In this document: positions 8,304 to 30,035 of the stretch, one piece after another
Position numbering within the stretch: position 1 is the stretch's first letter
How the letters are laid out: every line of letters starts with the position of its first letter
Source of the DNA: Planosporangium thailandense
GTDB taxonomy: Bacteria > Actinomycetota > Actinomycetes > Mycobacteriales > Micromonosporaceae
Reading direction: 5' to 3'
Length of the DNA stretch: 64,000 nucleotides
Assembly (NCBI RefSeq): GCF_011947195.1
Contig: NZ_JAATVY010000001.1
Span: forward strand, 248,001-312,000
Translations under genes and position numbers: made by a program
Notes under the pieces: model-generated
Told to the model about the DNA's origin: nothing
Database searches by the model: none
What the model saw: only the letters and a program-made list of their open reading frames with translations

Positions 8304-8403
8304 GAGATCTCCATGGCAACGTAGCTTAGACTGCTGCGGAACCTACCCGCCTCGGCGGCGCGCGCCGACACGGGGACCGCCTACCGCGAATATGGAAGTG
8401 GAC

Positions 8404-10505: not shown

Positions 10506-10553
10506 CCGGCCGGGTGATTCGGGCTCCCCTCAATCCTCGCCAAGGAGCAGGCG

Positions 10554-11753: not shown

Positions 11754-11755
11754 CC

Positions 11756-12391
11756 ATGTTCCTGGATGACGAGCGGAGCAACCGGCTCCGCCGCCAGATC
11801 CTCACCGACCTCGTCGGTGGCCTCATGAACGACGTCGAGCGGGCGCGGCTGCTCGGCCTTCCCGAGACCACGCGGATCCGCGAGCGCACGAAGATCGTCA
11901 GTGTCGAGAACCTCAAGCTCGGCGATCACTGCTGGGTCGGGGAGAACACCGTGCTGGATGCCAGTGGCGGCCTCACCATCGGTGAGCACACCAGTATCGG
12001 GCTCAACTGTCTGATCTTCACGCATTCGAGCTGGCTTTCGAACATGATGCTGGAGAACCACTCCGGCAGCGATCTGATCGAGCGCAAGCCGGTCAGGATC
12101 GGCAAGGGCTGCTTCATCGGTGGCGGCAGTGTCATCATGCCCGGGGTGACGATCGGTGACTTCGTGACCGTCAACCCGTTGTCGGTGGTGACGAAGGACG
12201 TGCCGGACTACTGCCTGGTCTCGGGCAACCCGGCGCGGGTGTTCCAGCGGTACGACCCTGAGTACATCAAGGCAGAAGCGGAACGGGTCCGCGCGGAGAA
12301 CACCGCGCGCCGGGAGGAAGCGGAGCGCCGCGGCATCGACGCCTCGGGCTGGCTCTCCCCGCCGGCCTTCGATGACGAGGGCGACGGCTGA
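11756..12391 (+). CDS. Left-handed beta-helix (hexapeptide) acyltransferase
   Basis: A 211-residue protein. The ATG at 11756 sits 6 nt after GGAAAGAAG. Hexapeptide repeats run from about residue 45 to 165 (LKLGDHCWVGENTVLDA, LTIGEHTSIGLNCLIFT, VRIGKGCFIGGGSVIMPG). The catalytic His of this family is probably in IFTHSSW. The end DVPDYCLVSGNPARVFQRY is typical of WbbJ/maltose-O-acetyltransferase-like enzymes. It likely O- or N-acetylates a sugar or glycan made by the preceding three genes. Confidence 0.87.
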   Translation: MFLDDERSNRLRRQILTDLVGGLMNDVERARLLGLPETTRIRERTKIVSVENLKLGDHCWVGENTVLDASGGLTIGEHTSIGLNCLIFTHSSWLSNMMLENHSGSDLIERKPVRIGKGCFIGGGSVIMPGVTIGDFVTVNPLSVVTKDVPDYCLVSGNPARVFQRYDPEYIKAEAERVRAENTARREEAERRGIDASGWLSPPAFDDEGDG

Positions 12392-15289: not shown

Positions 15290-17296
15290 TTACGCGGTCG
15301 GCTTTCCGAGCCAGTCCCGCGCGTCCACGACGACGAGGCCGGCCTCCGGGAACACGGCCGCCAACCGTCGGTATTCGGCGATGAGCTCAGGCTGCTCGGT
15401 GATGATCCGAGCCCGGACGTGCTCCTGAAGGAGGTGCCGCATGAGCGCCGCGGGGGGCATGTCAGGCGTGAGCGAGGGATGGACGAAGCCGTACATCGGA
15501 CCTGCGTGTACGTAGTTGCGCTGGATGGTGCCGACGTACAGGGTTGCGTAGGCCTGCTGGGTGCGGGTCCACCAGGCCGTCGGTGACTGCCCGTCGGGCG
15601 GGTAGAAGAACACCAGGTCCACGTAGCCGTCGTTGCGGGGGAAGCGCTGAAGCGTCTGTGCGACGACCTCCCCGACGTACGGCGTCGCGCCGTCGTCGCG
15701 CAGGTAGAGCAGCCCCCGGCTGGAGTGTACGTACGGGGCGGGCTTGACGACGACGCCGACGGCGGCGAGCAGGCAGGTCACGGCCGCGCCCGCGGTCACG
15801 ACCCAGCGGGGCCACGGCACCCGCGGCGGTCGGGCCCCCGAGCGCAGTCCCGACAGTACGGCGATCGCCGGTGCGCCGCCCGCGACCAGGCTCACCATGG
15901 CGAGCTGCATCAGCGTCTTTTCGAAGTAGTAGATGCTGTGCCCCAGCATCACCATCTGGTAGGCGTAGATCGCCAGGGCGAGCAGCGCCGCGGTGGCGAC
16001 CTGAACGCCCGCGAGCTGCCATACCGGCAGCCGGCGAACCTTTCGCAGGCACAGCGCGGCGAGCGGAACGGCCGTGACGAGGATGGTCAGCCAGCGGCTC
16101 ATCATGCTCGCGCCGCCGGGCAGCAACAGTTGGGCGCCGTTGTTGGCGCGCATGTTGGTCAGCGGCGTGACGAGGCTGAGCACCCCGGTGACCGCCACGG
16201 ACAGCCAGAGCGCCACGCGGTGACCGCGCAGTCGCCGACGGTACCGGACCAGCCACGCCAGGACGCTGACCAGCACCACGGGTAGAGAAAGGTAGTACAC
16301 AAAGGAGGTCGCCACCACCACGGCGCCGACCAGCACCAGTTGTTCGCGGGTACGCGCCACCGGTCGTGCCAGCAACGCGACCGTGATGACGAGCACCGCC
16401 AACCCGGGCACCTGCGACACGTACCCGTCCGGTACGAGCCGGACCGGGTCGCCGAAGGCGAGATACGTCGCCGCGGCGCCGAGCAGCGGCAGCGCGGCCC
16501 AGCCGGACAGCCAGACGCCGGCTACCCAGCGGATGGCCCACAGCACGGTGAGGTAGAGGAAGACCTCGCTGGCCAGCAGGAACAGCACCAGATGGTTGAA
16601 GGTGCCGAGTGTCGAGGAGGCGTGTGACGACGAACGGAGAAAGTTCTCGAGCAGGGCGTACAGGAAGTGCGAACCCTGCGGGTACGCCTTGAGCTCAGGG
16701 GGAACGAACGGCGTGCTGTGGCGGTGCAGGAAGACGTAGCCGCCCGCGGCGCGGATCTCGTCGTACAGCGCGTAGTGACGGGAGAAGTCGTCACCGTACG
16801 CCACCCGTCCCAACAGCCAGCCGGGGGTGGTGTGGCGAAGCGTGGAGAGCGGCACGATCGAGGCGAGCAGCGTGAACCCCACCACGAGCCAGTCGGCCGC
16901 GCCGAAGGTGCGGGGAAGGCTCGGCCGTCGGCGCAGCCCCAGCGCCGTCAGCACCAGTCCGGAGAACGCCGTGCCGGCGACCGCCACCGGCGCCAGATGC
17001 CACGGCCACATCGACAGCAGTAGCCCCATGGCGCAGGTGGCCCCGAACAGCAGGCCCGCGGCGAACACGAGGCGGTCGAGTACCGTCCGGCCCGACCGCA
17101 TCAGGCTCGCCGTAGCGACCAGCAGCAGGATGGGCAGAATCCAGTCGACGCCGAGGATGTCGGTGAGCACCGGCAGGCACCACGCCAGCACAAGGGCGAC
17201 AGCCGACCACGCGTACCGCGAGCCAACCGGAAGGCGACTGCGGAGTCGCGGTTCGACGGACTCCTCCCGTACCGGGCTTTCTATCGTTGAGGTCAC
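15290..17296 (-). CDS. Large polytopic membrane protein, paralogue 3 of 3
   Basis: A 668-residue protein, convergent with the lipoprotein gene. It has the same layout as the paralogues at 5042 and 12646: start block WILPILLLVATASLMRSGRT; GDDFSRHYALYDEIRAAGGY at about residues 168-187; YPQGSH at 205-210; LLLPGGASMMSRW; and YYFEKTLMQLAM. About 12 hydrophobic segments are followed by a ~130-residue soluble C-terminus. A GT-C-like glycosyltransferase or polymerase role is possible from the topology and the acidic loop motif. No experimentally known family is recognised. Confidence 0.68.
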   Translation of the reverse strand: MTSTIESPVREESVEPRLRSRLPVGSRYAWSAVALVLAWCLPVLTDILGVDWILPILLLVATASLMRSGRTVLDRLVFAAGLLFGATCAMGLLLSMWPWHLAPVAVAGTAFSGLVLTALGLRRRPSLPRTFGAADWLVVGFTLLASIVPLSTLRHTTPGWLLGRVAYGDDFSRHYALYDEIRAAGGYVFLHRHSTPFVPPELKAYPQGSHFLYALLENFLRSSSHASSTLGTFNHLVLFLLASEVFLYLTVLWAIRWVAGVWLSGWAALPLLGAAATYLAFGDPVRLVPDGYVSQVPGLAVLVITVALLARPVARTREQLVLVGAVVVATSFVYYLSLPVVLVSVLAWLVRYRRRLRGHRVALWLSVAVTGVLSLVTPLTNMRANNGAQLLLPGGASMMSRWLTILVTAVPLAALCLRKVRRLPVWQLAGVQVATAALLALAIYAYQMVMLGHSIYYFEKTLMQLAMVSLVAGGAPAIAVLSGLRSGARPPRVPWPRWVVTAGAAVTCLLAAVGVVVKPAPYVHSSRGLLYLRDDGATPYVGEVVAQTLQRFPRNDGYVDLVFFYPPDGQSPTAWWTRTQQAYATLYVGTIQRNYVHAGPMYGFVHPSLTPDMPPAALMRHLLQEHVRARIITEQPELIAEYRRLAAVFPEAGLVVVDARDWLGKPTA

Positions 17297-17788: not shown

Positions 17789-18769
17789 TCAGGCTTCTTC
17801 CGGCCCGTAGTTGTCGTTGATGACCTGCGCGACGGCGCGGTGCGACGGCAGGATCCTGGCGCGCTCGGTCTTGGCGTCGCTGCGCCCTTCCACGATGTCC
17901 AGGAAGTGGTCGAGCTGCGCGGCCAGGGGTTCCCGCGAGGTCGTCAGCTCGGGGATCTCGATGATGCTCTGCTGCCGGTAGCCGCGCCCGTCGGGGGTGG
18001 CGGCGTCGAGGGCGACGTGCCGGTAGATGGTGACGTCTCGGCGCAGCAGGTCGACCTCGATGAGCCGGTCGACCTCGGCGATCGTCAGCGCGCGCAGCTT
18101 GCGTTGGCTGATGCGGCTCGCGGACACCGTCGCCATGCCGCCTCCCGCGAAGTTCATCACGGCCTCGGCCACGTCCTCGGCCGCGGTCAGCGACCGGGGG
18201 TGGAAGTGCCCGAGCATGCCTCGCACCCGCGCCGGCTCGGCGCCACCGAAGATCTGGATGGCCAGGTCCACGTCGTGCACCAGCAGGTCCCAGGCGACCC
18301 CGGTGCGGATGCGCGGCACGTACGGCGAGTGTCGGGCGGCGGTCACGTGGACCGGGTGGTCCACCAGCGCCATCGCCGTCATCACGGCCGGGTTGAACCG
18401 CTCCAGGAGCCCGCAGACCAGCGGCAGCCCCCGCTTCTCGGAGAGTTCGACGATCTCCTCGCTCTCGGCGAGGCTCCCGCAGACCGGCTTCTCGATGAGC
18501 AGCGGCTTGTCCGCGGCGAGAATGTCGTGGGCGATCTTGTGGTGGTGCTCGGTCGGGGCCGCGAGGACGACCGCGTCCGCGTCGCTGAGGTCGCCCAGCT
18601 CAGGGGTCCACTTCGCACCGTACCGGTTGGCGATGCCGGTGCCGGCCTCACGGTTCGGGTCGACGACCCGGATCAGGTCACAGCGCTCCGACTGGAAGAG
18701 CACCCGCGCGTGCAGGGAGCCCATCGAGCCGGTTCCCACCAGAACGACCTTGGGACGTGCCGCGCTCAT
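17789..18769 (-). CDS. Gfo/Idh/MocA sugar-nucleotide dehydrogenase, GnnA-like (UDP-GlcNAc 3-dehydrogenase type)
   Basis: A 326-residue protein with an ATG overlapping the aminotransferase stop (ATGA). The Rossmann motif VVLVGTGSMGSLHARVL is at residues 8-24. The family Lys is in LLIEKPVCGSL. GLLERFNPAV, then PYVPRIRTGVAWDLLVHDVD, match from memory the UDP-GlcNAc 3-dehydrogenase / GnnA subgroup, which has ERFNPAV and PRI.D.G...DL.IHD.D. GnnA oxidises the 3-OH of UDP-GlcNAc and GnnB-type aminotransferases then install a 3-amine. WbpB/WlbA relatives use UDP-GlcNAcA and regenerate NAD+ with 2-oxoglutarate. Gene order (aminotransferase then dehydrogenase, overlapping) fits such a pair. Confidence 0.82.
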   Translation of the reverse strand: MSAARPKVVLVGTGSMGSLHARVLFQSERCDLIRVVDPNREAGTGIANRYGAKWTPELGDLSDADAVVLAAPTEHHHKIAHDILAADKPLLIEKPVCGSLAESEEIVELSEKRGLPLVCGLLERFNPAVMTAMALVDHPVHVTAARHSPYVPRIRTGVAWDLLVHDVDLAIQIFGGAEPARVRGMLGHFHPRSLTAAEDVAEAVMNFAGGGMATVSASRISQRKLRALTIAEVDRLIEVDLLRRDVTIYRHVALDAATPDGRGYRQQSIIEIPELTTSREPLAAQLDHFLDIVEGRSDAKTERARILPSHRAVAQVINDNYGPEEA

Positions 18770-19866
18770 GCCGTCACCGCCGCGCGTACGGCCTCGGCGA
18801 CCTGGTCCACCTCGGAGTCGGTCAGGTGCTGGTGTACCGGCAGCGAGATGCAGCGCGCCGCGACGCGCTCCGCGACCGGCGCGGGGTCCGCGACGACGTT
18901 CGGGTTGTTGGCGTAGCAGTCGTAGTCGTACACGACCTTCGGGTAGTAGATGCCGCAGCCGATGCCGCGCTCGCCCAGCAGGCGGATCACCTCGTCGCGG
19001 TCGCGCGCGGACTCGTCGGTGATGAGCACCGTGTACTGGTGCCAGACGTGCGAACGGCCGGGAAGCTCGGTCGGTACGCGTACGCCGGGGACGTCCCGCA
19101 GCGCCGCCGTGAGTCGCGCCGCGTTCTCCTTGCGCCGCTTCACCAGCTCCTCGTAGACGGTGAGCTGGGGGATCGCGAGCGCGGCCTGCAGGTCGGTCAG
19201 CCGGTAGTTGTTGCCCGCCATCTCGTACTGGTACCGCTGGCGCATGCCCTGGTTGCGCAGCAGGCGGAGCCGATCGGCGATCGTGTCGTCGTTGGTGGTG
19301 ATCATTCCACCTTCACCAGTCGTGATGTTCTTCGTGCCGTAGAACGAGAACGTGCCGATGCCGAAGCTGCCGGCCGCGCGGCCGTTGATGGTGGCGCCGT
19401 GCGCCTGGGCGGTGTCTTCGATCAGAGCCAGGCCGTGCCGCTGCGCCAGCGGGGCGATCCGGTCCATGTCCGCGGTCTGCCCGTACAGGTGGACCGGCAT
19501 GAGCACCTTGGTGCGCTCACCGACCGCGGCTTCGAGGGCGTCGGGGTCGACGCAGAAGTCGTCCTCGCGGATGTCGGCGAACCGCGCCACCGCTCCCGCC
19601 TCGAGGATCGCGTTGAGCGTCGCGACGAACGTGAAGGGGCTGGTGATTACCTCGTCACCCGGCTGGAGGTCGAGCGCCTGCACGGCCGCGATGAGGGCGG
19701 TCGTGCCGTTGTTGACCGCGACGGCGTGGGACACGCCCACGAACTCGGCGAACTCTCGCTCGAGGCGGGCGACCATCGGGCCCTGGGCCAGCATGCCCGA
19801 GCGAATGACTTCTACGGCGAGCCTTTCCGCTTCTTCGCTGATGCGGACACTCGAGATGGGAATCAA
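18766..19866 (-). CDS. DegT/DnrJ/EryC1-type sugar aminotransferase, GnnB/WbpE-like
   Basis: A 366-residue protein. I chose a TTG at 19866 because AAGGAG lies 6 nt upstream and the protein then begins with the family-typical IPISSVRISEEAERL; the longer frame to 20025 has atypical sequence. NNGTTALIAAVQAL binds phosphate, LIEDTAQAHGA holds the PLP Asp, and FYGTKNITTGEGG has the Schiff-base Lys. It probably transfers the glutamate amino group to the 3-keto sugar made by the overlapping Gfo/Idh enzyme, releasing 2-oxoglutarate. It could alternatively act on a 4-keto sugar. Confidence 0.88.
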   Translation of the reverse strand: MIPISSVRISEEAERLAVEVIRSGMLAQGPMVARLEREFAEFVGVSHAVAVNNGTTALIAAVQALDLQPGDEVITSPFTFVATLNAILEAGAVARFADIREDDFCVDPDALEAAVGERTKVLMPVHLYGQTADMDRIAPLAQRHGLALIEDTAQAHGATINGRAAGSFGIGTFSFYGTKNITTGEGGMITTNDDTIADRLRLLRNQGMRQRYQYEMAGNNYRLTDLQAALAIPQLTVYEELVKRRKENAARLTAALRDVPGVRVPTELPGRSHVWHQYTVLITDESARDRDEVIRLLGERGIGCGIYYPKVVYDYDCYANNPNVVADPAPVAERVAARCISLPVHQHLTDSEVDQVAEAVRAAVTA

Positions 19867-20352
19867 CCTGAACTCCTTGACGACTACGGCAGCACGATGC
19901 ACCGTACTACGGCAGTCTCGATTCGTCGTATCCGGTCTTGCCGGGCACAAAAGGTATTCGGCACAGGATGAACGGTCACGCCGGCGTACCGGCGAGCGTG
20001 GAAGGCGTCGCGTGATGGTCCTCACGAGGGGTCGACCGTCACGATTCCGCTATTGCCGTCCACGGTCGCGTGGGCCTTACGGCGATATGGCTTTCCGATT
20101 ACTCGGAGTTCAATTCGCTGTCGCTGACAGTAACCATGAGTCGTCGGTCCGAGCGTTTACGAACACTCCGAAGGGGACACTGTTGTTCTGTAGAGCCCGG
20201 AACCGTCGATGTCCGGCGGTCGCTCCAGAAATGATCAATACAGGTCCGGGGATCATTGCCGACGCCGATGGCTACGCTGTGGTTGAGTCGGTGAACGTCA
20301 GCCACGCGTTTGCTGGTTTCCCCTACGCCAGGCAGTTGAAAAGGTGATCTTT
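19867..20352. promoter_or_regulatory. Divergent intergenic region with no supported gene
   Basis: This 486-bp region lies between the leftward aminotransferase and the rightward MprF/AglD-like gene, so it should hold both promoters. It is noticeably AT-richer from about 20085 to 20300. I could not find a -35/-10 pair with good spacing, nor a strong inverted repeat. Open frames crossing it are extensions of neighbouring frames or lack a ribosome site. Confidence 0.45.
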
Positions 20353-21393
20353 GTGTCCGAAGACGTCGCGCTGATTGAGGCCACCGCGCCGGTCACACCG
20401 AAGGCCTCTTCCGCGCGGCGCGCCATCGTGACCGCATTGAAGATCGTATTGGCGGTCGCGATCGCCGGCTTCATGGTCTACAGCGTGGTGACGCAGTGGA
20501 AGCAGGTGAGCCAGGCCTGGCTGGGGCTTGCCTGGCAGTCGGTGGCGCTGTCGCTCGTCGCGGCCATCGCCGGCATGCTGGCCAACGTCATGGCCTGGCG
20601 GGCCAGCCTGAAGGACCTCGAACACGAGGTGTCCTTCGTGTCCGCGGCACGAATCAACTTCATCGGCGCCCTGGGCAAGTACCTGCCGGGAAGCGTCTGG
20701 GCGTACGTGATGCAGATGGAGTTCGGCCGCCGGGCCGGACTGCCCAGGGCGCGGGCATTCCTCGCCTCGATCGTCGCCCTCGGGCTGGGCACCACCGCGG
20801 CCCTGGCCGTCGGTACTCTCGCGCTGCCGTCGCTGTTCGACGGCGCGAAGGCGGCGGAGTCGTACGGAAGCTCCGTCCGGGTGGCGCTCTACATCGTGAT
20901 GGTGCTGGTCCCCATCGCGCTCATCTGTGCGATCCCGCAGGTGCTGACCCGCCTCATCCAGTTGCTGCTGCGAGTGCTGCGCCGGCCTCCGTTGACCCAC
21001 ACGCTCAGCTGGGGTGGAGTGCTCCGGGTCGTCGGCTGGGCCGCGGTCGGCTGGGTCTGCTTCGGCATCCACCTGTGGCTGCTGGCCAACGCACAGGCCG
21101 CCCCGGGAGTCGATGGGCTGTTCCGGTCCATCGGCGCGTTCGCGCTCGCCCTGACCGTCGGCGTGTTCGCCATCTTCGCGCCCTCCGGGCTCGGCGTCCG
21201 GGAGGCCGTGCTGGTGGCCGCCCTCGTGCCTTCGCTACCCGGGCACAACGCGGCCGGCATCGCGTACGGCATCGCGCTCATGTCCCGGATGCTGTTCATC
21301 CTGGCCGACGCCCTGATGGCGGGGGCGGCCGCGCTCACCACCCTTCGTGACCGCCGGTCCGCGCGGGTCGCGACGCCGCAGGTCGAGGACTGA
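20353..21393 (+). CDS. Lysylphosphatidylglycerol-synthase-TM / AglD-type flippase-like membrane protein
   Basis: A 346-residue protein. GTG 20353 follows AAAAGGTGAT by 6 nt and is preferred to GTG 20344. There are about 8 TM segments. GALGKYLPGSVWAYVMQ is the UPF0104/MprF-N signature (GKYLPG), and FAPSGLGVREAVL is the second signature (PxGxGxRE). Members move lysyl-lipids (MprF) or sit in glycolipid and polysaccharide loci (AglD). No synthase domain is attached. It probably moves or shields a glycolipid made by this locus. It ends 28 bp before a strong hairpin and faces the luxC-like gene. Confidence 0.85.
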   Translation: MSEDVALIEATAPVTPKASSARRAIVTALKIVLAVAIAGFMVYSVVTQWKQVSQAWLGLAWQSVALSLVAAIAGMLANVMAWRASLKDLEHEVSFVSAARINFIGALGKYLPGSVWAYVMQMEFGRRAGLPRARAFLASIVALGLGTTAALAVGTLALPSLFDGAKAAESYGSSVRVALYIVMVLVPIALICAIPQVLTRLIQLLLRVLRRPPLTHTLSWGGVLRVVGWAAVGWVCFGIHLWLLANAQAAPGVDGLFRSIGAFALALTVGVFAIFAPSGLGVREAVLVAALVPSLPGHNAAGIAYGIALMSRMLFILADALMAGAAALTTLRDRRSARVATPQVED

Positions 21394-21420
21394 CGCCGGT
21401 CACCGGCCCGTAAGCCGAAC

Positions 21421-21451
21421 GTCCTCGGCCGCCACTCCGGCGGCCGAGGAC
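21421..21451. terminator. Bidirectional hairpin terminator
   Basis: A perfect 13-bp stem, GTCCTCGGCCGCC (21421-21433) with GGCGGCCGAGGAC (21439-21451), and a 5-nt loop lie in the 81-bp gap between the convergent flippase-like and LuxC-like genes. No U-tract is present; this is usual in high-GC actinomycetes. Confidence 0.8.
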
Positions 21452-21474
21452 GCGTCGTTCGGGGGGTTCGGGGA

Positions 21475-22710
21475 CTACCTGCTCTGGACGGTGGTCAGCC
21501 GGGTGAACTCACGCAGCAGGTCGTAGCCGTCCCACACGGACGAGAAGGTGAGCGCGTCGCCGATCGGCACGATCCGGTCCACGCCGCGGCCGGCGAGCTG
21601 TTCGGCGAAGCCCACCAGCTCGTCGGTGCCGAAGCCGAAGTGGCTCATCGTCTGGTCGCGCCGCTCCACGATGCTCACCAAATCGTCGAGCGACCCGACC
21701 TGCGCCTGCGGGAACGTGCCGACGCCGAGCCAGCGCCGGGGGACCAGCCCCGGTTCAACCAGCTCCACCGTGGCGATCGCGTTGCCCGCGAAGCGCACCT
21801 CGCTGGCGACGCCCTCGGCGGCGAGCCCGTAGGTCGACACCCGCTTCTCCACCGACATGGCGGCGTCGACCTCGGTACCCTTGCTCTCCACCACCTCCGC
21901 GAGCAGCCCGAACAGCTCGTCGCGGGCCTCGCGGACGGCCTCCGGCTCGCCGACCCAGTAGATCGCGCGGGGCGACGCGCAGGCGGCCTGGTCGAACCAG
22001 TACGAGTCGTTGTACAGCCCGATCGCCACGTCCCGCCGGGCCGCGGCGTCGGCGGCGCGCCAGCCGGCGGCCGAGATGACGGCGAACGACGACCGGTCGG
22101 GGAACGTGACGTCGCGGGCGGACGGGCGCAGCGGGTGGCGGCGGATGTCGGTCACCGACCGGTCGCCGCCCCAGATGACCCGCAGGTCGCAGCCCTGGGA
22201 CAGGGCCGCCGTGACCGCGTCGTCGCGCCCGTACGTGACCATGCGCTGGGTCTGCGCGATGGCCGGATCCGCGTCGGCGAGCGTGGTGTTGAGCGCGTCG
22301 AGCACCGCCACGGCGGCCCCGGCCGACCGGGACGAGATACGCACGATGTTCGGGTTGCCGGCCAGCGCCGACAGCGCCCAGGAGTACACGAAGATGGTGT
22401 CCACGTTCGCCGGTGGCACGTGGAAGACGACCCCGCGCGGAAAGCGCAGCTGCCCGAGCGGCGGCGTGGCCGCCGCGATGGTCTTCTCCAGTTCGCCGCG
22501 GCGCAGGAAGAAGCCGAGTGACGCGAGTTCAGGGAAGCGGCGGGCCACGCTGGGAGCCAGCAGGCGGCGGGCGAACGCGACCAGGAAGTCGCTCACCCGG
22601 GGGTCGCCCACCCGCAGCCGGCCGCCCGGCGGCTCGCTGGTCACCTCCGCCAGCAGGTCACTCACGCTGGTCGGCGCCCCGGTCGGGAACCGCTGCTCGA
22701 CTGTGCTCAT
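21475..22710 (-). CDS. LuxC-type acyl-CoA/acyl-protein reductase
   Basis: A 411-residue protein. The ATG at 22710 follows AAGGGGCGGC and overlaps the LuxE stop (ATGA). It is an aldehyde-dehydrogenase-fold fatty-acyl reductase: FHVPPANVDTIFVYSWALSA and GNPNIVRISSR are typical LuxC segments, and the catalytic Cys is probably in WFDQAACASPR, followed by WVGEP. LuxC reduces an acyl group carried on LuxE to a fatty aldehyde with NADPH. In luminous bacteria the aldehyde feeds luciferase, but no luxA/luxB is present here. It is the last gene of the LpxA-ACP-FabG-ligase-LuxE-LuxC operon, so the product should be tied to the glycan locus. Confidence 0.85.
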   Translation of the reverse strand: MSTVEQRFPTGAPTSVSDLLAEVTSEPPGGRLRVGDPRVSDFLVAFARRLLAPSVARRFPELASLGFFLRRGELEKTIAAATPPLGQLRFPRGVVFHVPPANVDTIFVYSWALSALAGNPNIVRISSRSAGAAVAVLDALNTTLADADPAIAQTQRMVTYGRDDAVTAALSQGCDLRVIWGGDRSVTDIRRHPLRPSARDVTFPDRSSFAVISAAGWRAADAAARRDVAIGLYNDSYWFDQAACASPRAIYWVGEPEAVREARDELFGLLAEVVESKGTEVDAAMSVEKRVSTYGLAAEGVASEVRFAGNAIATVELVEPGLVPRRWLGVGTFPQAQVGSLDDLVSIVERRDQTMSHFGFGTDELVGFAEQLAGRGVDRIVPIGDALTFSSVWDGYDLLREFTRLTTVQSR

Positions 22711-23768
22711 GCCGCCCCTTGGAACGTGTCGCTGCAGCCCCGCGCTTCGGCGCGCGGCAGCCGGCCCAGGATGGAAAAGCGCTTGCCCGGCCAGTCCCCG
22801 TCGTCGATGCCGTGGATCACCCCACGGTCCTCGGTCAGCAGGATGTGGCCCGGGTACGAGCGCGGCAGGGTGCTGACCACCTCGATCACGCCGGGGGTGC
22901 CGACCGGCACCTCCTCCCACGTGACCGGGTCACGGACGATCACATCGGCGAAGTCGGGGCAGTAGAGCCCGTTGCCGGACGGCCCTTCCACGTAGACCGT
23001 GCCGATCTGCTCGACCATGCCGTAGTAGTTGTGGATGCGGGTCAGCCCGGTGTCCTGTGCGAACCGGCGGCGGAACTCGGCGTTGTCCACGGCCTGGTCG
23101 ATCAGCTTCTTCCAGCCGCCGCTGTGGATGAGGATGCCGTTGGAAAGGTCCAGGTGCTCGTCGCGGGCCAGCTCGTACAGGTAGAGCCAGGCCATGAACG
23201 TGAAGCCGAAGATGAGGAACGGCTGGTCGCCGTGCTTGGCGAGGAAACCGCGCACCGCGTCCAGGTCGGGCCGCTCGTTCTCGTCGAGGACGAACGTGTG
23301 GTCCCGGCCGAAGTTCATCATGCCGAGCACGCCGGCGCCGCGCGCCGAGAACGAGCGCCGGTTCTTGAACAGCGCCTTCGTGTCGACCAGCAGCATCGGC
23401 AGCCGGTTGGGGCCGATGACGGTCTGGATCGTCGCCGACAGCATGCGCTGCTGGGCGGCGGCCGCCTCCTTGTCCAGGAAGATCCGGCTCACCTCGGCGC
23501 CCGTGGTGCCGCTGGAGGTCAGCACCTTGAAGACCTCGTCGTCCGGCACGCTCTTGAGCGCGTGGTGCTTGAACAGCCGAACCGGCAGCCACGGCAGGTC
23601 GGCGACCCGCTCGTACCTCCGGCCGGCCGGGTGCCCGATCGCGTCGAGGATCCGGCGGTACTCGACGCTCGCCGCCCGGTGGTGCTCGGTCAGCTCGGTG
23701 AGCTCCTGGAGCAGAGAGACGTCCCGCTCGGCCTGAGACTTACTGAAGACGCTGGTGGCGACCGTCAT
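22707..23768 (-). CDS. LuxE-type acyl-protein synthetase
   Basis: A 353-residue protein whose ATG overlaps the ligase stop (ATGA). LuxE activates a fatty acid as acyl-AMP and holds it on a Cys for LuxC. LPWLPVRLFKHHAL and VLTSSGTTGAEVSRIFLD (an ATP/AMP P-loop-like motif) are characteristic. GFTFMAWLYL, HSGGWKKL, RIHNYYGMVEQIGTVY and the C-terminal LLTEDRGVIHGIDD all fit the LuxE family. Length is typical. Its pairing with LuxC is strict in the gene order. The acyl source may be free acid or the operon's own ACP. Confidence 0.87.
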   Translation of the reverse strand: MTVATSVFSKSQAERDVSLLQELTELTEHHRAASVEYRRILDAIGHPAGRRYERVADLPWLPVRLFKHHALKSVPDDEVFKVLTSSGTTGAEVSRIFLDKEAAAAQQRMLSATIQTVIGPNRLPMLLVDTKALFKNRRSFSARGAGVLGMMNFGRDHTFVLDENERPDLDAVRGFLAKHGDQPFLIFGFTFMAWLYLYELARDEHLDLSNGILIHSGGWKKLIDQAVDNAEFRRRFAQDTGLTRIHNYYGMVEQIGTVYVEGPSGNGLYCPDFADVIVRDPVTWEEVPVGTPGVIEVVSTLPRSYPGHILLTEDRGVIHGIDDGDWPGKRFSILGRLPRAEARGCSDTFQGAA

Positions 23769-25213
23769 GATCTCGCTTCCAAGGTCCGGTAGTCGATCTT
23801 TCCGTTGGAGAGCAGCGGCAGCCGGTCGATGTCGCGGACGTCGAACCCCGAGCGGTGCAGCTTCATCCGCTCGGCGAGCAGCTTCGCCACCTCGGCCCGG
23901 CGGTCGGCGTCGACCGTCCCCTCGCACCACAGGACGACCTTGTCCCCGGCGGGCACGGCGGCCACCGGCCCGACACCGTCCACGCCGGCCTGGCCGACCA
24001 ACTTCTCGATGTCGTCGAGGTTGACCCGGATGCCGAAGACCTTGCCGATGCGCTTGAGCCGGCCGGTCAGGTACAGGAAACCTTCGTCGTCGAGGTACCC
24101 CAGGTCGCCGGTGTACAGCACGCCGCCCTGGTCGTCGCCGCGGCTCAGGTCGGCCGCGGTGTCGGCGTACCCCATCATCACGTTGGGGCCGCGGTAGACG
24201 ATCTCGCCGGTGACGCCCGGCTCCCGCGTCTCGCTGCCGTCGTCCAGGCGTACCGAGAGCGTGCCGCCGGGCAGCGCGAGCCCCGGCGAGCCCACCCGCT
24301 GCGGAAGCTGGTCGGCGGGCAGCGTGCTCATCCGCGGCCCGGCCTCGGTCTGGCCCCACATCACGTAGAACCGGCCGCCCAGCGCGGAGATCTTCTCGTG
24401 GTAGGCCAGGATCATCTCGTTGCGCAGCCGGCCGCCGGCCTGGGTCAGCGTGCGCAGGCTGGGGTGCTTGGCGGGGCTCCAGCGGATCCTGGCCAGCATC
24501 TCGTAGTTGTACGGGACGCCCGCCAGCGAGGTCGCGCTGTAGCGGTCGAACGCCTGCCAGAACTCGCGCGCCAGGACGCCACCGTCCACGACGACCACGG
24601 TCGCGCCGCTGACGAGGTGGCTGTTGAGCACCGACATGCCGTAGCTGTAGAACAGCGGCAGGCTGGTCGGCGCGACCTCGTCGCCGTCGATGTGCAGCAC
24701 CTGCGCGATCGCCGCCGCGTTGGACGTGATCGCGGTGCGCGACAGTCGGACAAGCTTCGGGCTTCCGGTGGATCCTGACGTCGCGAGCATCACCCCGAGG
24801 TCGGGGTGGGGGCTGGCGGCCGGCTCACCGCCGGTGCGTACCCAGGCCGGGCCCAGCGGGCCGACGTCGCGGCGCTCGTAGCCCGGCGGGGTGTCGCCCG
24901 CCTGCGCGCCCGCTCCGCCCTCATCCAGGCCCACCACTGCGGCCGGGGCGAACCGGCGCACCATCTCGGCGAGCGTCGCCGGGTCGAGCGCCGGGTCGAG
25001 CAGGGCGACCGGCCGGTGCGCCGCCCAGCAGCCCAGGTAGCGCAGGACAGCCGCCGTGCTGATGCCGGTACGCGCGAAGACCGCGCCGGTGGGCAGCTCC
25101 GCGAGCGACGCGGCGGTCGCGTCGATCGCGGTCGTGAGCGCCGCGCCGGCGAGCTCCTCTCCGGTCGCGGCGTCGATCAGTCGGGCGCCTGCGGCGACAA
25201 GATCAGTACTCAC
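23765..25213 (-). CDS. AMP-forming acyl-CoA/acyl-ACP ligase
   Basis: A 482-residue ANL-superfamily enzyme. The GTG start overlaps the SDR stop (GTGA). The P-loop motif LATSGSTGSPKLVRLS, WGQTEAGPRMS (A5), YTGDLGYLDDEGFLYLTGR (A7/A8 hinge) and the C-terminal Lys in LLSNGKIDYRTLE (A10) are all visible. It should activate a carboxylic acid and pass it to CoA or, given the adjacent acp gene, to the phosphopantetheine arm of that ACP. The absence of a carrier or condensation domain separates it from NRPS proteins. Acid specificity is unknown. Confidence 0.87.
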   Translation of the reverse strand: MSTDLVAAGARLIDAATGEELAGAALTTAIDATAASLAELPTGAVFARTGISTAAVLRYLGCWAAHRPVALLDPALDPATLAEMVRRFAPAAVVGLDEGGAGAQAGDTPPGYERRDVGPLGPAWVRTGGEPAASPHPDLGVMLATSGSTGSPKLVRLSRTAITSNAAAIAQVLHIDGDEVAPTSLPLFYSYGMSVLNSHLVSGATVVVVDGGVLAREFWQAFDRYSATSLAGVPYNYEMLARIRWSPAKHPSLRTLTQAGGRLRNEMILAYHEKISALGGRFYVMWGQTEAGPRMSTLPADQLPQRVGSPGLALPGGTLSVRLDDGSETREPGVTGEIVYRGPNVMMGYADTAADLSRGDDQGGVLYTGDLGYLDDEGFLYLTGRLKRIGKVFGIRVNLDDIEKLVGQAGVDGVGPVAAVPAGDKVVLWCEGTVDADRRAEVAKLLAERMKLHRSGFDVRDIDRLPLLSNGKIDYRTLEARS

Positions 25214-25956
25214 AACACGAGACCACCGTCAACGCCGAGGATCTGTCCGGTGATGAACGCCGACTCGTCGCTGACGAGGAAGCGGATGGCCCTGGCCACG
25301 TCCATCGGGTCGCCGAGGCGGCGCAGCGACGTGTGCGCGACCCGGTCCTCGACCAGATCCTTCGGCAGGTGGGCGATCATCTCGGTCTCGATCAGGCCGG
25401 GAGCCACCGCGTTGACCCGGATGCCGCGCGGGCCCAGCTCCTTGGCCGCCGACCGCGCGACCGTCGCCACCGCGGCCTTCGACGCGGCGTACGCGGTCTG
25501 GCCGGCGCTGCCGTGCTCGCCCACGATGGACGCGAGCACGACGATCGCGCCCGAGCGCTTGCGCATCATGACCCGGGCCGCGGCCTGCACGGTGTTGATC
25601 GTGCCGGCCACGTTGGTCGCGAGCATGCGGTCGATCAGCTCCGGCTTGATCATGCCGATGAGCGCGTCTTCGAGCACGCCCGCGTTCGCGACGAGAGCGT
25701 CGATGCGCCCGTGCTCCGCGGCGATGCCCTTGAACGCCGCACCCACCGCGTCGAAGTCGGCCACGTCGAAACCGACACCGCTCGTGGGTACGCCGTGCGC
25801 CTCGGCCAGCTCCGCGGCGACCGTCTTGGCGTCTTCTGCGTCCCGGCTGGTGACCACGACGGTCGCGCCGGCCTCCGCCAGCGCCTGTGCCGTGGCCCGT
25901 CCGATACCGCGGGTGCCGCCGGTGACGACGGCTACCCGACCTGCGAGGCTACCCAC
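25210..25956 (-). CDS. Short-chain dehydrogenase, FabG-like (3-oxoacyl-ACP reductase type)
   Basis: A 248-residue protein with a GTG start 7 nt after the acp gene. VAVVTGGTRGIGRATA is the NAD(P) site (TGxxxGIG). NAGV is present, and the catalytic set reads S in VLASIVGEHGSAGQTAYAASK with YAASK. The C-terminus FITGQILGVDGGLVL is typical of FabG. It probably reduces a 3-oxoacyl group on the operon ACP, giving a 3-hydroxyacyl chain. A sugar or alcohol substrate cannot be excluded. Confidence 0.87.
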   Translation of the reverse strand: MGSLAGRVAVVTGGTRGIGRATAQALAEAGATVVVTSRDAEDAKTVAAELAEAHGVPTSGVGFDVADFDAVGAAFKGIAAEHGRIDALVANAGVLEDALIGMIKPELIDRMLATNVAGTINTVQAAARVMMRKRSGAIVVLASIVGEHGSAGQTAYAASKAAVATVARSAAKELGPRGIRVNAVAPGLIETEMIAHLPKDLVEDRVAHTSLRRLGDPMDVARAIRFLVSDESAFITGQILGVDGGLVL

Positions 25957-25963
25957 GATGCCG

Positions 25964-26209
25964 TCAGCCCTCGACGCCCATTGACTGCAGCATGTCGAGC
26001 GCGACCTTGAAGCTGCTCATGTCGATGACCTGCTCGGTGTCGAGCTGGACGCCGAACTCGTCCTCGATGGCCGCGACCAGCGTCATGTGGCCGAGCGAGT
26101 CCCACTGCTCGATATCGCGGTACTTGAGGTTCTCGACGTCCACATCGGCCGGCAGTTCGAGTGCCTCGACAAAGACGCCCCGCAGGCGGTCGGCGATGGC
26201 GGTGCTCAT
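25964..26209 (-). CDS. Acyl carrier protein
   Basis: An 81-residue protein with an ATG behind GAGGAGA. The four-helix ACP pattern is clear, with the phosphopantetheine serine in EQWDSLGHMTLV (DSLGH variant of DSL) near residue 38. AIEDEFGVQL is helix III. It is a stand-alone carrier located between an LpxA-like acyltransferase and a FabG-like reductase, so it probably presents an acyl chain to both, loaded by the AMP ligase downstream. It is probably distinct from the housekeeping fatty-acid-synthase ACP. Confidence 0.92.
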   Translation of the reverse strand: MSTAIADRLRGVFVEALELPADVDVENLKYRDIEQWDSLGHMTLVAAIEDEFGVQLDTEQVIDMSSFKVALDMLQSMGVEG

Positions 26210-26225
26210 ACTTGGTTTCTCCTCG

Positions 26226-26990
26226 TCAGCTCTCTTGAGTCTGGATCTTGGACCAGGCGGCGAGCTGATCGGCCAGCTCGGCCGGCAGATCGGCCGGCAG
26301 CGGGCTCTTGCCCGCCAGGTAGGAGGCGAACACGTCGACCACCGCGTCGCTGCACCCGCGCCTCGACAGGCCGACCCGGTTGACGCCGGACACGCGCGCC
26401 GGATTTCCCACCGTGATGGTGAACGGCGGCACGTCCTTACGCACGGCCGAGCCCATCCCGATCATGGCGCCGGGCCCGACCTGCGTGCGCTGGTGGACAA
26501 CCGTACCCATGCCGATGTTCGCCCAGCTCCAGACGTGAGTGTGACCGCCGAGCTGTACCGCGTCCGCCAGCGTCACGGAGTTGTGCAGCACGATGTCATG
26601 GCCGATGTGACTGCGCGCGAGAGCGTAGCAGTCGTTGCCGATCGTCGTCGGCTCGTGCGTGCCCTGATTCACGGTGACGAACTCGCGGATGATGTTGCCG
26701 TCACCGATGATGACGCCGGCGCCTTCGATCTCACCGTCCCAACCGACGGGGTGGGGGCCGCCCCGGTACTCGGCCGGCGTGCCGATGGACGCGTGCGGCC
26801 CGATCAGGTTGTTGTCGCCGATCCGCGTCGGTCCGATGAGTACGGTGTATGGCCCGATGACATTGTTGTCACCTAGTTCCACGCCCGCACCGATGATCGC
26901 AGTGGGATGGATTTTGTTCGCCACTATGCCTGTCTCGTCTGTGTGCGTGAGTAACGTCAGGAACGCGGGGGTCGTGCTGTCAACCCCCAT
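26226..26990 (-). CDS. LpxA-like acyl-ACP:UDP-aminosugar acyltransferase
   Basis: A 254-residue protein. ATG 26990 follows GGAAGGGCACGG; an inner GTG at 26924 would start nearer the usual LpxA N-terminus. The left-handed beta-helix starts at IHPTAIIGAGVELGDNNVIG. NIIREFVTVNQGT matches the E. coli LpxA segment RIRESVTIHRGT, and SHIGHDIVLHNSVTLAD matches the catalytic region, with His of GHD aligned to His125. VRKDVPPFTITVGNPARV and VNRVGLSRRG match the start of the C-terminal helical part. LpxA moves a 3-hydroxyacyl chain from ACP to UDP-GlcNAc, or to UDP-GlcNAc3N when selective. A Gram-positive should not make lipid A, so another glycolipid is implied. Confidence 0.85.
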   Translation of the reverse strand: MGVDSTTPAFLTLLTHTDETGIVANKIHPTAIIGAGVELGDNNVIGPYTVLIGPTRIGDNNLIGPHASIGTPAEYRGGPHPVGWDGEIEGAGVIIGDGNIIREFVTVNQGTHEPTTIGNDCYALARSHIGHDIVLHNSVTLADAVQLGGHTHVWSWANIGMGTVVHQRTQVGPGAMIGMGSAVRKDVPPFTITVGNPARVSGVNRVGLSRRGCSDAVVDVFASYLAGKSPLPADLPAELADQLAAWSKIQTQES

Positions 26991-27268: not shown

Positions 27269-27952
27269 CTACGCAAAGGCGACGAACACCCGCGAGGCGA
27301 CCTCGCGCGGCAGGCGGATCTGGTCGCCTTCGCGGTCGATGCGCACCGCGTCACGCTCCTGTGCCACCGTGACGTGGGCGCCGGGGTCGATCCCGGCCGC
27401 GTGCAGTTGACGCAGGACCCCCGCATCGGTCTGCACGCTCTCGCAGATCCGGCTCACCACGACCGGACCGCTCAGGCCCGGGAAGGCCAGGTTGCGCTCG
27501 CCGTCACCGGCGGACGCGCCCGACGCCTGCGAGCCGTCCAGGTCGGTGAGCCCGGGGATGGGGTTGCCGTAGGGCGAACGGGTCGGCCGCCCGAGGAGCT
27601 CGTAGACGCGCTGCTCCACGGCCTCGCTCATCACGTGCTCCCAGCGGCAGGCCTCCTCGTGGGCCTCTTCGTAGGGCATGCCGATGACGTTGACCAGCAG
27701 CAGCTCGGCCAGGCGGTGCTTGCGCATGACGCTGACCGCGTAGGCGCGTCCCGCCGCGGTCAGCACGAGGTGCCGGTCGCCTTCCACGCTGAGCAGGCCG
27801 TCGCGCTCCATCCGCGAGACGGTCTGGCTGACCGTCGGCCCGCTCTGGTGCAGCCGCTCCGCGATGCGGGCACGCAGCGGGACAACGCCCTCCTCCTCCA
27901 GCTCGAGGATGGTCCGGAGGTACATCTCCGTGGTGTCGACCAGCTCGTTCAA
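27269..27952 (-). CDS. ideR: Iron-dependent repressor, DtxR/IdeR family
   Basis: A 227-residue protein with a TTG start behind GGGAGGG. It is almost colinear with Corynebacterium DtxR and mycobacterial IdeR. The HTH RIAERLHQSGPTVSQTVSRM is at about residues 27-46. Metal ligands are present: Met10, His79 and Glu83 (MRKHRLAEL), His98, Cys102, Glu105 and His106 (HEEACRWEH). A C-terminal SH3-like domain spans about residues 150-227. With Fe2+ it represses iron uptake and siderophore genes. It is divergent from the sulfurtransferase gene with a 53-bp gap. In mycobacteria ideR is next to sigB, and the sigB gene here is 4.8 kb away. Confidence 0.92.
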   Translation of the reverse strand: MNELVDTTEMYLRTILELEEEGVVPLRARIAERLHQSGPTVSQTVSRMERDGLLSVEGDRHLVLTAAGRAYAVSVMRKHRLAELLLVNVIGMPYEEAHEEACRWEHVMSEAVEQRVYELLGRPTRSPYGNPIPGLTDLDGSQASGASAGDGERNLAFPGLSGPVVVSRICESVQTDAGVLRQLHAAGIDPGAHVTVAQERDAVRIDREGDQIRLPREVASRVFVAFA

Positions 27953-28005: not shown

Positions 28006-28860
28006 ATGACCGACCGGCAGCATCTCGTCGACGCCGTCGGGCTCGTCGGCGAGCTGGATCGCGACGACCCGCCGACCGTACTGGACGTGCGCTGGACCCT
28101 TACCGGGGGTGGCCGCGCCGCGTTCGACGCCGGACACCTGCCCGGGGCCGTCTTCCTCGACCTCGACGCCGACCTCGCCGGACCGCCCGGCGCCGGCGGT
28201 CGTCACCCGCTACCCGATCCGGCGGCGCTCCAGGCCGCGCTGCGCCGCGGCGGCGTGCGCGCCGGGCACCCGGTGGTCGTGTACGACGCCGGCGGCACCC
28301 CGCCGACCGGCGCCGCCGCCCGGGCCTGGTGGATCCTGCGCTGGGCCGGGCTGGCCGACGTGCGGGTCCTCGACGGCGGGTACGCGGCCTGGACCGCGGC
28401 GGGCGGCCCGGTGACCCGGGCCGAAGCGACACCCATCCCCGGCGACGTGACGGTCGGCGCCGGCTCGCTGCCGGTCGTCGACGCCACCGGGGCGCAGGCC
28501 GTCGCGGCCGACGGCGTGCTGATCGACGCCCGGGTGCCGGCCCGCTTCCGGGGCGAGACCGAGCCGGTGGACCCGGTCGCCGGCCACATCCCCGGCGCCC
28601 GCAACCAGCCGGCGGCCGAGACCGTCGACGAAGCCGGGCGGCTGCACCCGCCGGCGCTGCTGCGGGCGGGCTACGCCGACCTCGGCGTACGGGCCGACCG
28701 GCCGGTCGCCGCCTACTGCGGCTCCGGCGTGACGGCCGCGCAGACCGCCCTCGCGCTCACGGTCGCCGGGTTCGAGCCCGCCCTGTACATCGGCTCCTGG
28801 AGCCACTGGATCACCGACCCGGAGCGTGCGGTGGCGACGGGGGAGGAGGGTTCGTCATGA
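28006..28860 (+). CDS. Thiosulfate/3-mercaptopyruvate sulfurtransferase (two rhodanese domains)
   Basis: A 284-residue protein. Two rhodanese domains are visible. The first (residues ~1-130) has VLDVRWTL, GAVFLDLDADLAG and VVYDAGG, the typical inactive half. The second (~150-280) ends with the active-site loop YCGSGVTA, where Cys carries the persulfide; CGSGVT is the form seen in MST/SseA proteins. It moves sulfane sulfur from mercaptopyruvate or thiosulfate to thiol acceptors. It overlaps acuC by 4 nt (ATGA). Confidence 0.9.
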   Translation: MTDRQHLVDAVGLVGELDRDDPPTVLDVRWTLTGGGRAAFDAGHLPGAVFLDLDADLAGPPGAGGRHPLPDPAALQAALRRGGVRAGHPVVVYDAGGTPPTGAAARAWWILRWAGLADVRVLDGGYAAWTAAGGPVTRAEATPIPGDVTVGAGSLPVVDATGAQAVAADGVLIDARVPARFRGETEPVDPVAGHIPGARNQPAAETVDEAGRLHPPALLRAGYADLGVRADRPVAAYCGSGVTAAQTALALTVAGFEPALYIGSWSHWITDPERAVATGEEGSS

Positions 28861-30032
28861 CCGACACCCTGGTCGTGTGGAACGAGTCGCTGCTCGACTA
28901 CGACATGGGTGAGCACCCGCTCAACCCGGTACGCGTCGAGCTGACCATGGCGCTCGCCGGTGAGCTCGGCGTCCTCGACCGCCCAGGGGTGCGGCTCGAA
29001 GCCCCGAAACCGGCCGACGACGCCGCGCTGCTGCGCGTGCACACCCCCGGGTACCTCGACGCGGTACGCCACGCCATGCTGGGCGCGCACGGGCACGGGC
29101 TCAACACCCCCGACAACCCCGTCTTTCCGAACATGCACGAGGCGAGCGCCCTCGTCGCCGGCGCCACGATGCGCGCGGCCGAGGCGGTGTGGCGCGGCGA
29201 GACCCGGCGCGCCGTCAGCATCTCCGGCGGCCTGCACCACGCGATGCCCGACCGGGCGTCCGGCTTCTGCGTCTACAACGACCCGGCCGTCGCGATCGCC
29301 CGCCTGCTCGACCTGGGCGCCGAGCGGATCGGGTACGTCGACGTCGACGTGCACCACGGCGACGGCGTACAGCAGATCTTCTACGACGACCCCCGCGTCC
29401 TGACGATCAGCCTGCACGAGACGCCGCTGGCCCTGTTCCCCGGCACCGGGTACCCCGCCGAGACCGGCGGCCCCGGCGCGGAGGGCACCGCCGTCAACGT
29501 CGCGCTCCCACCCGGCACGACCGACGCCGGCTGGCTGCGCGCCTTTCACGCGGTCGTGCCCGGCGCGCTGCGCACGTTCCGGCCGCAGGTGCTCGTCACG
29601 CAGTGCGGCGCCGACGGGCACCGGCTCGATCCCCTCGCCGACCTGCGCCTGACCGTCGACGGGCAGCGCGCCACGTACCTCGCGCTGCGCGACCTCGCCG
29701 AGGAGCTGTGCGGCGGCCGATGGATCGCCATGGGCGGCGGCGGGTACGCCCTGGTCGAGGCCGTGCCACGGGCCTGGACGCACCTGCTGGCCGTCGTCAC
29801 GGGCGAACCGCTCGACCCGGCCCTGCCCACGCCGCCGAGCTGGCGGGCGCTCGCCGCCGACCGGTGTCCCGACCGCCGCTGCCCGGATGCCATGACCGAC
29901 GGCGGTGACCCGGCGTACCACCCCTGGTCACCCGGGTTCGACGCGCCGGACGCGATCGACCGGGCGATCCTGGCGACCCGCCGGACCGTGTTCCCGCTGC
30001 TCGGCCTCGACCCCGCCGACCCGAGGGACTGA
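28857..30032 (+). CDS. acuC: AcuC-type histone-deacetylase-family protein deacetylase
   Basis: A 391-residue class I HDAC-fold protein. DYDMGEHPLNPVRVELT at the start is the AcuC hallmark. The catalytic HH pair is in GGLHHAMPDRASGFCVYND, and the zinc site is in YVDVDVHHGDGVQQIFYDD. TQCGADGH and MGGGGYALVEAVPRAW follow. AcuC deacetylates acetyl-CoA synthetase in Bacillus. Here the next gene, 3 nt away, is a GNAT/acyl-CoA-ligase fusion of the Pat type, so the two probably add and remove acyl groups on metabolic enzymes. Confidence 0.92.
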   Translation: MTDTLVVWNESLLDYDMGEHPLNPVRVELTMALAGELGVLDRPGVRLEAPKPADDAALLRVHTPGYLDAVRHAMLGAHGHGLNTPDNPVFPNMHEASALVAGATMRAAEAVWRGETRRAVSISGGLHHAMPDRASGFCVYNDPAVAIARLLDLGAERIGYVDVDVHHGDGVQQIFYDDPRVLTISLHETPLALFPGTGYPAETGGPGAEGTAVNVALPPGTTDAGWLRAFHAVVPGALRTFRPQVLVTQCGADGHRLDPLADLRLTVDGQRATYLALRDLAEELCGGRWIAMGGGGYALVEAVPRAWTHLLAVVTGEPLDPALPTPPSWRALAADRCPDRRCPDAMTDGGDPAYHPWSPGFDAPDAIDRAILATRRTVFPLLGLDPADPRD

Positions 30033-30035
30033 GCA

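Follow-up and report, generated by a model that had tools for sequence, protein, structure and literature searches.

We analyzed a 64,000-nucleotide window of the actinomycete Planosporangium thailandense (Micromonosporaceae; contig NZ_JAATVY010000001.1, forward-strand positions 248,001 to 312,000; host genome, 7.0 Mb; window GC, 71%), in which two groups of minus-strand genes may together make an N-acylated amino sugar. The first group is a pair: a Gfo/Idh oxidoreductase (GFO; 17789-18769; PF01408, 69.6 bits), proposed to be a GnnA-like nucleotide-sugar 3-dehydrogenase, and its GnnB-like DegT/DnrJ/EryC1 aminotransferase partner (DEGT; 18766 to ∼19866; PF01041, 418.6 bits), which overlaps it by 4 nucleotides. 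The DEGT open reading frame (ORF) itself opens at 20025, and a TTG start at 19866 agrees with relatives. The second group is a run of six close genes encoding an LpxA-like left-handed beta-helix acyltransferase resembling Pcryo_0615 (LPX; 26226 to ∼26924; GTG start; NF003657, 185.7 bits), a stand-alone acyl carrier protein (ACP; 25964-26209; PF00550, 26 bits against a cut-off of 20.8), a FabG-like short-chain dehydrogenase/reductase (SDR; 25210-25956; PF13561, 211.6 bits), an AMP-forming acyl ligase (23765-25213; PF00501, 137.8 bits), a LuxE-family acyl-protein synthetase (22707-23768; PF04443, 156.4 bits), and a LuxC-family acyl reductase (21475-22710; PF05893, 105.7 bits); we refer to the last five as the cassette. 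Overlaps of 4 nucleotides join SDR to ligase, ligase to LuxE, and LuxE to LuxC, and an alternative ATG at 26990 would add to LPX a tail missing from most aligned relatives. Codon-position GC backs the ORFs of both gene groups except LuxE, which falls outside this filter with an open frame that begins far upstream, within the ligase gene. An earlier note on this DNA had reported the Gfo/Idh gene overlapping a DegT gene and the motifs GLLERFNPAV and HIGHD, and we confirmed the coordinates, the overlap, and the translations; it had also described the LpxA-like operon with its ACP, FabG-like SDR, and AMP ligase, correctly as far as those genes go, while overlooking LuxE and LuxC.

Relatives of the locus were collected by a profile search of genome contigs with an alignment of nine LPX proteins, which gave 311 related stretches; the best 80 loci were kept, each reaching 10 kb on either side of LPX. 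Amycolatopsis makes up a large share of these loci, and locus counts are not independent; records L024, L025, L033, and L035 are the same as L037, L107, L059, and L042, and all locus counts are over the 80 named loci. In 65 of the 80 loci (64 with complete ORFs), LPX has both a GFO and a DEGT match no farther than 10 kb away, and the two genes are adjacent on one strand in 63 of the 64 complete pairs. LuxE, LuxC, and ligase genes are all complete near LPX in 61 loci, 59 of which have LPX directly upstream of the ACP gene on the same strand. Across 300 genomes of the family, LPX was found in 6 (E ≤ 1e-30) and GFO in 25 (E ≤ 1e-50), and all six LPX genomes are among the 25 GFO genomes (p = 1.8e-7). 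Fifteen genomes have an incomplete pair near LPX (L036, whose pair is cut by the stretch end, was left out of this whole-genome search), and 12 of them have a GFO match somewhere in the genome (E ≤ 1e-20), ten at no less than 53% identity, one at 38%, and one at 30%; in L101 and L111 the match is the GFO gene that lies near LPX. A same-genus genome (G003) carries the co-directional run ACP-SDR-ligase-LuxE-LuxC-DEGT-GFO-LhgO, ending in an L-2-hydroxyglutarate oxidase gene; the same 300-genome search found no LPX in it at E ≤ 1e-30, and because the run begins 24 bases into its contig, LPX may have been lost to the contig end.

Where LPX is absent, another acyltransferase gene mostly accompanies GFO. 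All 19 GFO genomes without LPX encode a hexapeptide protein related to that at positions 4981-5523 of locus L146 (E ≤ 1e-25), which we call WlbB-like, and 15 of these 19 genomes have its gene no more than 5 kb from GFO, versus 0 of 17 LPX genomes (6 of the family plus 11 hand-picked from the named loci; Fisher p = 7e-7). Five of the 17 LPX genomes have a relative of the WlbB-like protein (43 to 49%), none near GFO, and the 80 named loci contain no WlbB-like gene at E ≤ 1e-15. The WlbB-like protein of G007, encoded 107 bases from GFO, has 3mqg as its top PDB match (117 bits), followed by 4mzu, 7s43, 7s3u, and 3fs8; the titles of these entries name the WlbB 3-N-acetyl transferase (3mqg), FdtD, a Helicobacter pullorum N-acetyltransferase with a dTDP-3-amino sugar, and QdtC for a dTDP-3-amino sugar. 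FdtD, a solved relative of the WlbB-like protein, presumably acts on a 3-amine. A GFO tree, some branches of which are weakly supported, places WlbB-linked sequences within the LPX-linked set at two points. Most simply, GFO and DEGT together would yield a 3-amine, to be capped by either LPX or a WlbB-like enzyme. Because LPX is linked to and co-occurs with the GFO pair, and because a WlbB-like 3-N-acetyltransferase takes its place elsewhere, LPX most likely acylates the sugar 3-amine.

LPX falls below the curated cut-offs for LpxA (NF003657, 185.7 versus 226 bits; TIGR01852, 174.1 versus 231.05 bits). The E. coli LpxA residues H125, D126, H160, Q161, N198, and R204 are kept in 37 of 37 LPX sequences. 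The acyl groove positions of E. coli LpxA, I152, G155, and G173, are all substituted in the same 37 (I152N in 36 and S in one, G155M or L, G173M), as is H191 (H191P in all); M at 173 alone also occurs in the aligned P. aeruginosa LpxA. The earlier note had looked to a catalytic His and an acyl groove in this protein, and the former is present in every relative, together with its Asp, while the groove is altered. The same four residues, N, M, M, and P at positions 152, 155, 173, and 191, are found in PDB entry 8e62, titled as Pcryo_0615, an N-acetyltransferase required for a diacetamido-2,3-dideoxy sugar. This Psychrobacter cryohalolentis enzyme shares with LPX an LpxA-type fold and the catalytic His-Asp; it is shorter (189 versus ∼232 residues), and it aligns to LPX residues 42 to 228, short of the C-terminal helices that extend to residue 253 in the predicted LPX structure (pLDDT, 89.9). 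We propose that LPX is an LpxA-fold enzyme serving, like Pcryo_0615, as a 3-N-acyltransferase. A long-acyl lipid product was rejected: the catalytic His and Asp are kept, but the pocket is substituted as in Pcryo_0615. The absence of lpxC claimed by the earlier note holds for the whole genome, which gave no LpxC match in a search that was positive for 4 of the 14 controls; this genome-wide search did not extend to lpxB, lpxD, or lpxK. Its further claim that the product must be new is weakened, since 8e62 is a solved precedent, an LpxA-like N-acetyltransferase in the making of a diacetamido-2,3-dideoxy sugar.

The pair itself points to a nucleotide sugar. Among the 10 NCBIfam models that GFO matched, the best is the archaeal UDP-GlcNAc 3-dehydrogenase model NF040723 (136.6 bits), with iolG second (89.5 bits). 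The top PDB chain for the GFO family profile is 7bvj (157.5 bits, in the lead by 36 bits), which we take to be GnnA of Acidithiobacillus ferrooxidans; 3q2k, presumably WlbA, scores 63 bits. The pyridoxal phosphate-binding lysine of DEGT is kept in 66 of 66 aligned sequences. The proposed GFO substrate is a UDP-HexNAc, with UDP-GlcNAc the most likely. The GnnA/GnnB/LpxA route, which leads to UDP-GlcNAc3N lipid A in Acidithiobacillus and Leptospira, likewise joins a dehydrogenase and DegT pair to an LpxA-fold acyltransferase; in contrast to that route, the window cluster has no LpxC match, a short-acyl pocket, and a Gram-positive surface-glycan setting. Dehydrogenation, amination, and N-acylation also follow one another in the WbpB/WbpE/WbpD and WlbA/WlbC/WlbB routes, the same three-step logic as proposed here. 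The WlbB route resembles the relatives' clusters, where a WlbB-like enzyme occupies the LPX role, whereas GFO is far from the WlbA entry 3q2k. A WlbA-type uronic pathway was set aside as the leading explanation, given that low score and the lack of a UDP-sugar 6-dehydrogenase among the window proteins scanned, which were part of the window's ORFs and of the genome; the product of the Psychrobacter Pcryo_0615 pathway is a glucuronic acid. An inositol or aminocyclitol pathway was set aside in the same way, with the UDP-GlcNAc 3-dehydrogenase model and 7bvj in the lead.

The cassette proteins retain their catalytic residues. The ACP phosphopantetheine Ser is kept in 64 of 64 sequences, the ligase motif in 61 to 62 of 62 per position, the SDR Ser-Tyr-Lys in 60 of 60, and the LuxE C-terminal Cys345 and LuxC Cys246 each in 63 of 63. 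LuxC and LuxE meet their Pfam families and miss the curated bioluminescence cut-offs (LuxC, 43.3 versus 750; LuxE, 56.8 versus 550). An NRPS-type (nonribosomal peptide synthetase) enzyme and oxalate-CoA ligases lead among the solved relatives of the ligase, with fatty-acid ligases lower. A plain fatty acyl supply, the view implied by the earlier note, is not supported, as LuxE and LuxC belong to the cassette. The identical gene order occurs in Deinococcus sp. NW-56, Nonomuraea, and G063, and the parts are rearranged in Ponticoccus and Rhizobium, the Rhizobium copy lying near a short LpxA-like gene. G063 (7.66 Mb) has its cassette (L132, 7037-11699) ∼3 Mb from LPX, GFO, and DEGT, in a genome whose cluster keeps only LPX and SDR. 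A search for LuxE in 17 LPX genomes (E ≤ 1e-20) found it in 3 (the window genome, G063, and G704) and in none of the other 14, which had been picked since no cassette was seen near their LPX. Conversely, at L139 the cassette adjoins GFO in the company of a WlbB-like gene and with no LPX, and genomes such as G276 lack LPX while holding the cassette, GFO, and DEGT along with a WlbB-like gene. Since LPX persists without LuxE and the cassette joins a WlbB-like gene without LPX, cassette and acyltransferase type vary independently. The LPX tree contains a clade whose members mostly lack the cassette and another whose members mostly carry it, with several losses within.

A possible parallel to the cassette is the tetronate gene set of Vibrio cholerae O1 (VC0248-0252, rfbK-O), in which an amino sugar receives a short hydroxy acid by way of a carrier and a ligase; the likeness is one of gene kinds (carrier, ligase, acyl reductase, and hexapeptide transferase are all present in the window) and not of sequence comparison. 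RfbN is presumably LuxE/LuxC-like and RfbO presumably a hexapeptide protein, and an alcohol dehydrogenase stands where the window cassette has its SDR. RfbL is described as activating 2,4-dihydroxybutanoic acid and joining it either to CoA or to RfbK, the carrier (PMC12208996), and the perosamine amino groups are acylated with this acid (PMC3441752). All five gene kinds (ACP, FabG, ligase, LuxE, and LuxC) are also described in flagellin glycosylation islands of Aeromonas group II and Enterobacteriaceae, for which a liposugar component is suggested (PMC7874193, PMC4875605); the window copy lies instead in an actinomycete cluster beside LPX, GFO, and DEGT. The flagellin glycan of Aeromonas piscicola AH-3, whose island holds the same cassette, is described as bearing an unidentified 102 Da moiety. 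This moiety may be dihydroxybutanoyl, for which the computed residue mass of the 2,4-isomer is 102.03 Da. The cassette probably makes a short hydroxyacyl-ACP.

A further linked cluster member is the L-2-hydroxyglutarate oxidase LhgO (7113-8303, minus strand; NF008726, 576.5 bits against a cut-off of 299). Of the 25 GFO genomes, 19 have LhgO on the GFO contig no more than 12 kb away, three have it on another contig, and three gave no LhgO at E ≤ 1e-60; in G003 it directly follows GFO. All 22 LPX genomes searched have LhgO; its distance to LPX is ∼2 to 27 kb in 20 of them, where positions suggest that the two share a contig, the exceptions being L037 and the GFO-poor Yinghuangia L046. WbpB, the 3-dehydrogenase of P. 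aeruginosa lipopolysaccharide synthesis, reduces 2-oxoglutarate to D-2-hydroxyglutarate and so regenerates NAD (PMC8651671). This precedent suggests that NAD recycling by GFO may be driven by 2-oxoglutarate too, with the difference that L-2-hydroxyglutarate is predicted here; we infer the link of the cycle to the L form.

On the side of the GFO/DEGT pair away from the LPX operon, LhgO is followed by plus-strand genes for a second DegT aminotransferase (DEGT2; 8392-9543; PF01041, 353.8 bits), an NAD-dependent epimerase/dehydratase (SDR2; 9573-10505; PF01370, 176.6 bits; GalE and LegB models on top, both under their own cut-offs), a GT4 glycosyltransferase (10554-11753; PF00534, 89.2 bits), and a hexapeptide acyltransferase (HEX2; 11750-12391; PF00132, 42.9 bits). 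A flippase-like membrane protein of the LPG_synthase_TM family (20344-21393, plus strand; PF03706, 58.8 bits) sits between the pair and the LPX operon. Matches to these genes recur in the 80 loci (LPG_synthase_TM, 69; GT4, 60; HEX2, 56; SDR2, 53; DEGT2, 48). Three large membrane proteins of 663 to 686 residues (5042-7102, minus; 12646-14637, plus; 15290-17296, minus) have no Pfam match at the limits used; each is ∼35% identical to one protein of loci L025 and L026, and the domains DUF6541 and DUF6077 turn up in proteins encoded at related clusters. These three are perhaps polymer-building glycosyltransferases. Among relatives without LPX, a CDP-glycerol glycerophosphotransferase lies near the cluster in L139 and L146 and a TarS linker in L143, neighbors that hint at a wall polymer as the setting. 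Elsewhere in the window are gas vesicle genes (GvpK, Gas_vesicle, GvpL/GvpF; 20-1568, plus), a DtxR-type iron-dependent repressor gene that lies upstream of the LPX operon and shares its strand (27269-27952, minus; 314.7 bits versus a cut-off of 290), and, at 28329-32657 (plus), a histone-deacetylase-like gene followed by a GNAT and acyl-CoA synthetase-like fusion, perhaps a protein acetylation/deacetylation pair.

We favor, with moderate confidence, a cluster that makes nucleotide-activated amino sugars for a surface glycan; gene content, linkage, the WlbB swap, catalytic and pocket residues, and the predicted fold were observed directly, and every substrate and product in this scheme is inferred. 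Using NAD+, GFO would oxidize a UDP-HexNAc (UDP-GlcNAc being the likeliest) at C3, and DEGT would transfer an amino group from glutamate to C3. LPX would then N-acylate the 3-amine with a short acyl group, in place of a WlbB-type enzyme; acetyl-CoA is the likelier donor, the alternative being the operon-encoded ACP charged with a short hydroxyacyl group. In the cassette, LuxE would activate the carboxyl of a small acid, LuxC would reduce it to the aldehyde, and SDR would take this to the alcohol; the ligase would then load the hydroxy acid onto ACP, as inferred for the V. cholerae O1 tetronate. The 2-oxoglutarate that DEGT releases would serve GFO to re-oxidize its NADH, and the resulting L-2-hydroxyglutarate would probably be recycled by LhgO.

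Several results weigh against this scheme. The GFO score of 136.6 bits misses the curated NF040723 cut-off of 450. GFO near LPX is only 27% identical in L099 and L104. Of the 15 genomes with an incomplete pair near LPX, 3 gave no GFO match at E ≤ 1e-20 and one matched at only 30%; Amycolatopsis palatopharyngis (L067) and A. marina (L112) carry LPX and the cassette with no GFO match in the genome at that threshold, and another dehydrogenase may replace GFO there. Locus L083 has no GFO near LPX, and the 38% GFO of its genome adjoins a WlbB-like gene. In this Blastococcus litoris locus, LPX (10001-10690) is near citrate synthase and fumarase genes, and a glycosyltransferase is the sole sugar gene among the five neighbors scanned. 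A single genus accounts for 12 of the 15 WlbB-linked genomes; with each genus counted once, the contrast is 3/6 versus 0/14 (p = 0.018). In 4 of the 19 LPX-less genomes, G003 among them, the WlbB-like gene lies away from GFO. At the active site, 8e62 differs from LPX at two more places (Y for H122, K for R204), and LpxA chains fit the LPX model as well as or better than 8e62. LhgO is present in 146 of the 300 family genomes, including 124 of the 275 without GFO, and so is not tied to GFO alone; the WbpB product is the D form, and LhgO is named for the L form.

Among other explanations, the one that fares best has LPX using the cassette, so that the 3-amine would receive a short hydroxyacyl group (e.g., 2,4-dihydroxybutanoyl) carried by the ACP of the operon. 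The position of LPX directly upstream of ACP fits such a donor, as do the established use of acyl-ACP by LpxA enzymes, the handling of 2,4-dihydroxybutanoic acid by RfbL and RfbK and its place on perosamine, and the 102 Da moiety of A. piscicola AH-3. We treat this as a tentative alternative to the favored acetyl donor, however, given that LPX is kept without LuxE in 14 of 17 genomes searched, that in L139 the cassette and a WlbB-like gene stand beside GFO without LPX, and that the LPX pocket matches an acetyltransferase. The fuller combination, a 2,3-diamino sugar bearing on N-3 a short hydroxyacyl group made by the LuxE/LuxC cassette and added by an LpxA-fold transferase, with a 2-oxoglutarate/LhgO NAD cycle, all in a Gram-positive surface glycan, is doubtful as a whole.

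It is unlikely that LPX acylates instead the amine made by DEGT2, probably that of a 4-amino sugar, with the closeness of GFO and DEGT reflecting a shared glycan only. Two Yinghuangia loci (L046, L047) fit that explanation, having DEGT2, SDR2, GT4, HEX2, LPX, and the cassette with no GFO/DEGT nearby, in genomes that hold a 30% GFO or none; yet 17 of the 65 GFO and DEGT loci, such as the DEGT-GFO-LPX runs of Actinokineospora, show neither DEGT2 nor SDR2, a count that speaks for the 10-kb stretches alone, and the WlbB-like swap goes with GFO. We give only a slim chance to GFO and DEGT being aminocyclitol or kanosamine-type enzymes rather than nucleotide-sugar enzymes: iolG is the second model matched by GFO and a glutamine--scyllo-inositol transaminase chain ranks fourth (234 bits) in the list of solved DEGT relatives, but GFO scores 47 bits higher on the UDP-GlcNAc 3-dehydrogenase model than on iolG, 7bvj leads by 36 bits, and the usual partner of GFO is an acyltransferase of nucleotide-sugar type. 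As for the earlier note, its N-acylation of a 3-amino sugar outside lipid A is supported by linkage, co-occurrence, and WlbB replacement, while its lipid, made by adding a long acyl chain, is the least probable outcome of all, with groove residues replaced as in the solved N-acetyltransferase and a ligase whose closest solved relatives are the NRPS-type enzyme and oxalate-CoA ligases.

An LpxA-like N-acetyltransferase is already known from the title of 8e62; what is new is that actinomycete glycan clusters combine such an enzyme with a GnnA-like pair, LhgO, and the LuxE/LuxC cassette, and no title on this cluster was among the matches listed in searches of a single literature library on LuxE/LuxC and GnnA/GnnB/LpxA. 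The cluster occurs in Amycolatopsis, Saccharothrix, Micromonosporaceae, and other actinomycete genera. If the favored scheme is true, it would give this actinomycete cluster a testable role and place an LpxA-fold enzyme outside lipid A in Gram-positive bacteria. It would also provide a chemical product for the recurring ACP-FabG-ligase-LuxE-LuxC cassette, left open in the available sections of PMC7874193 and PMC4875605 and including the 102 Da Aeromonas moiety, and would suggest a reason for an L-2-hydroxyglutarate oxidase within a sugar cluster.

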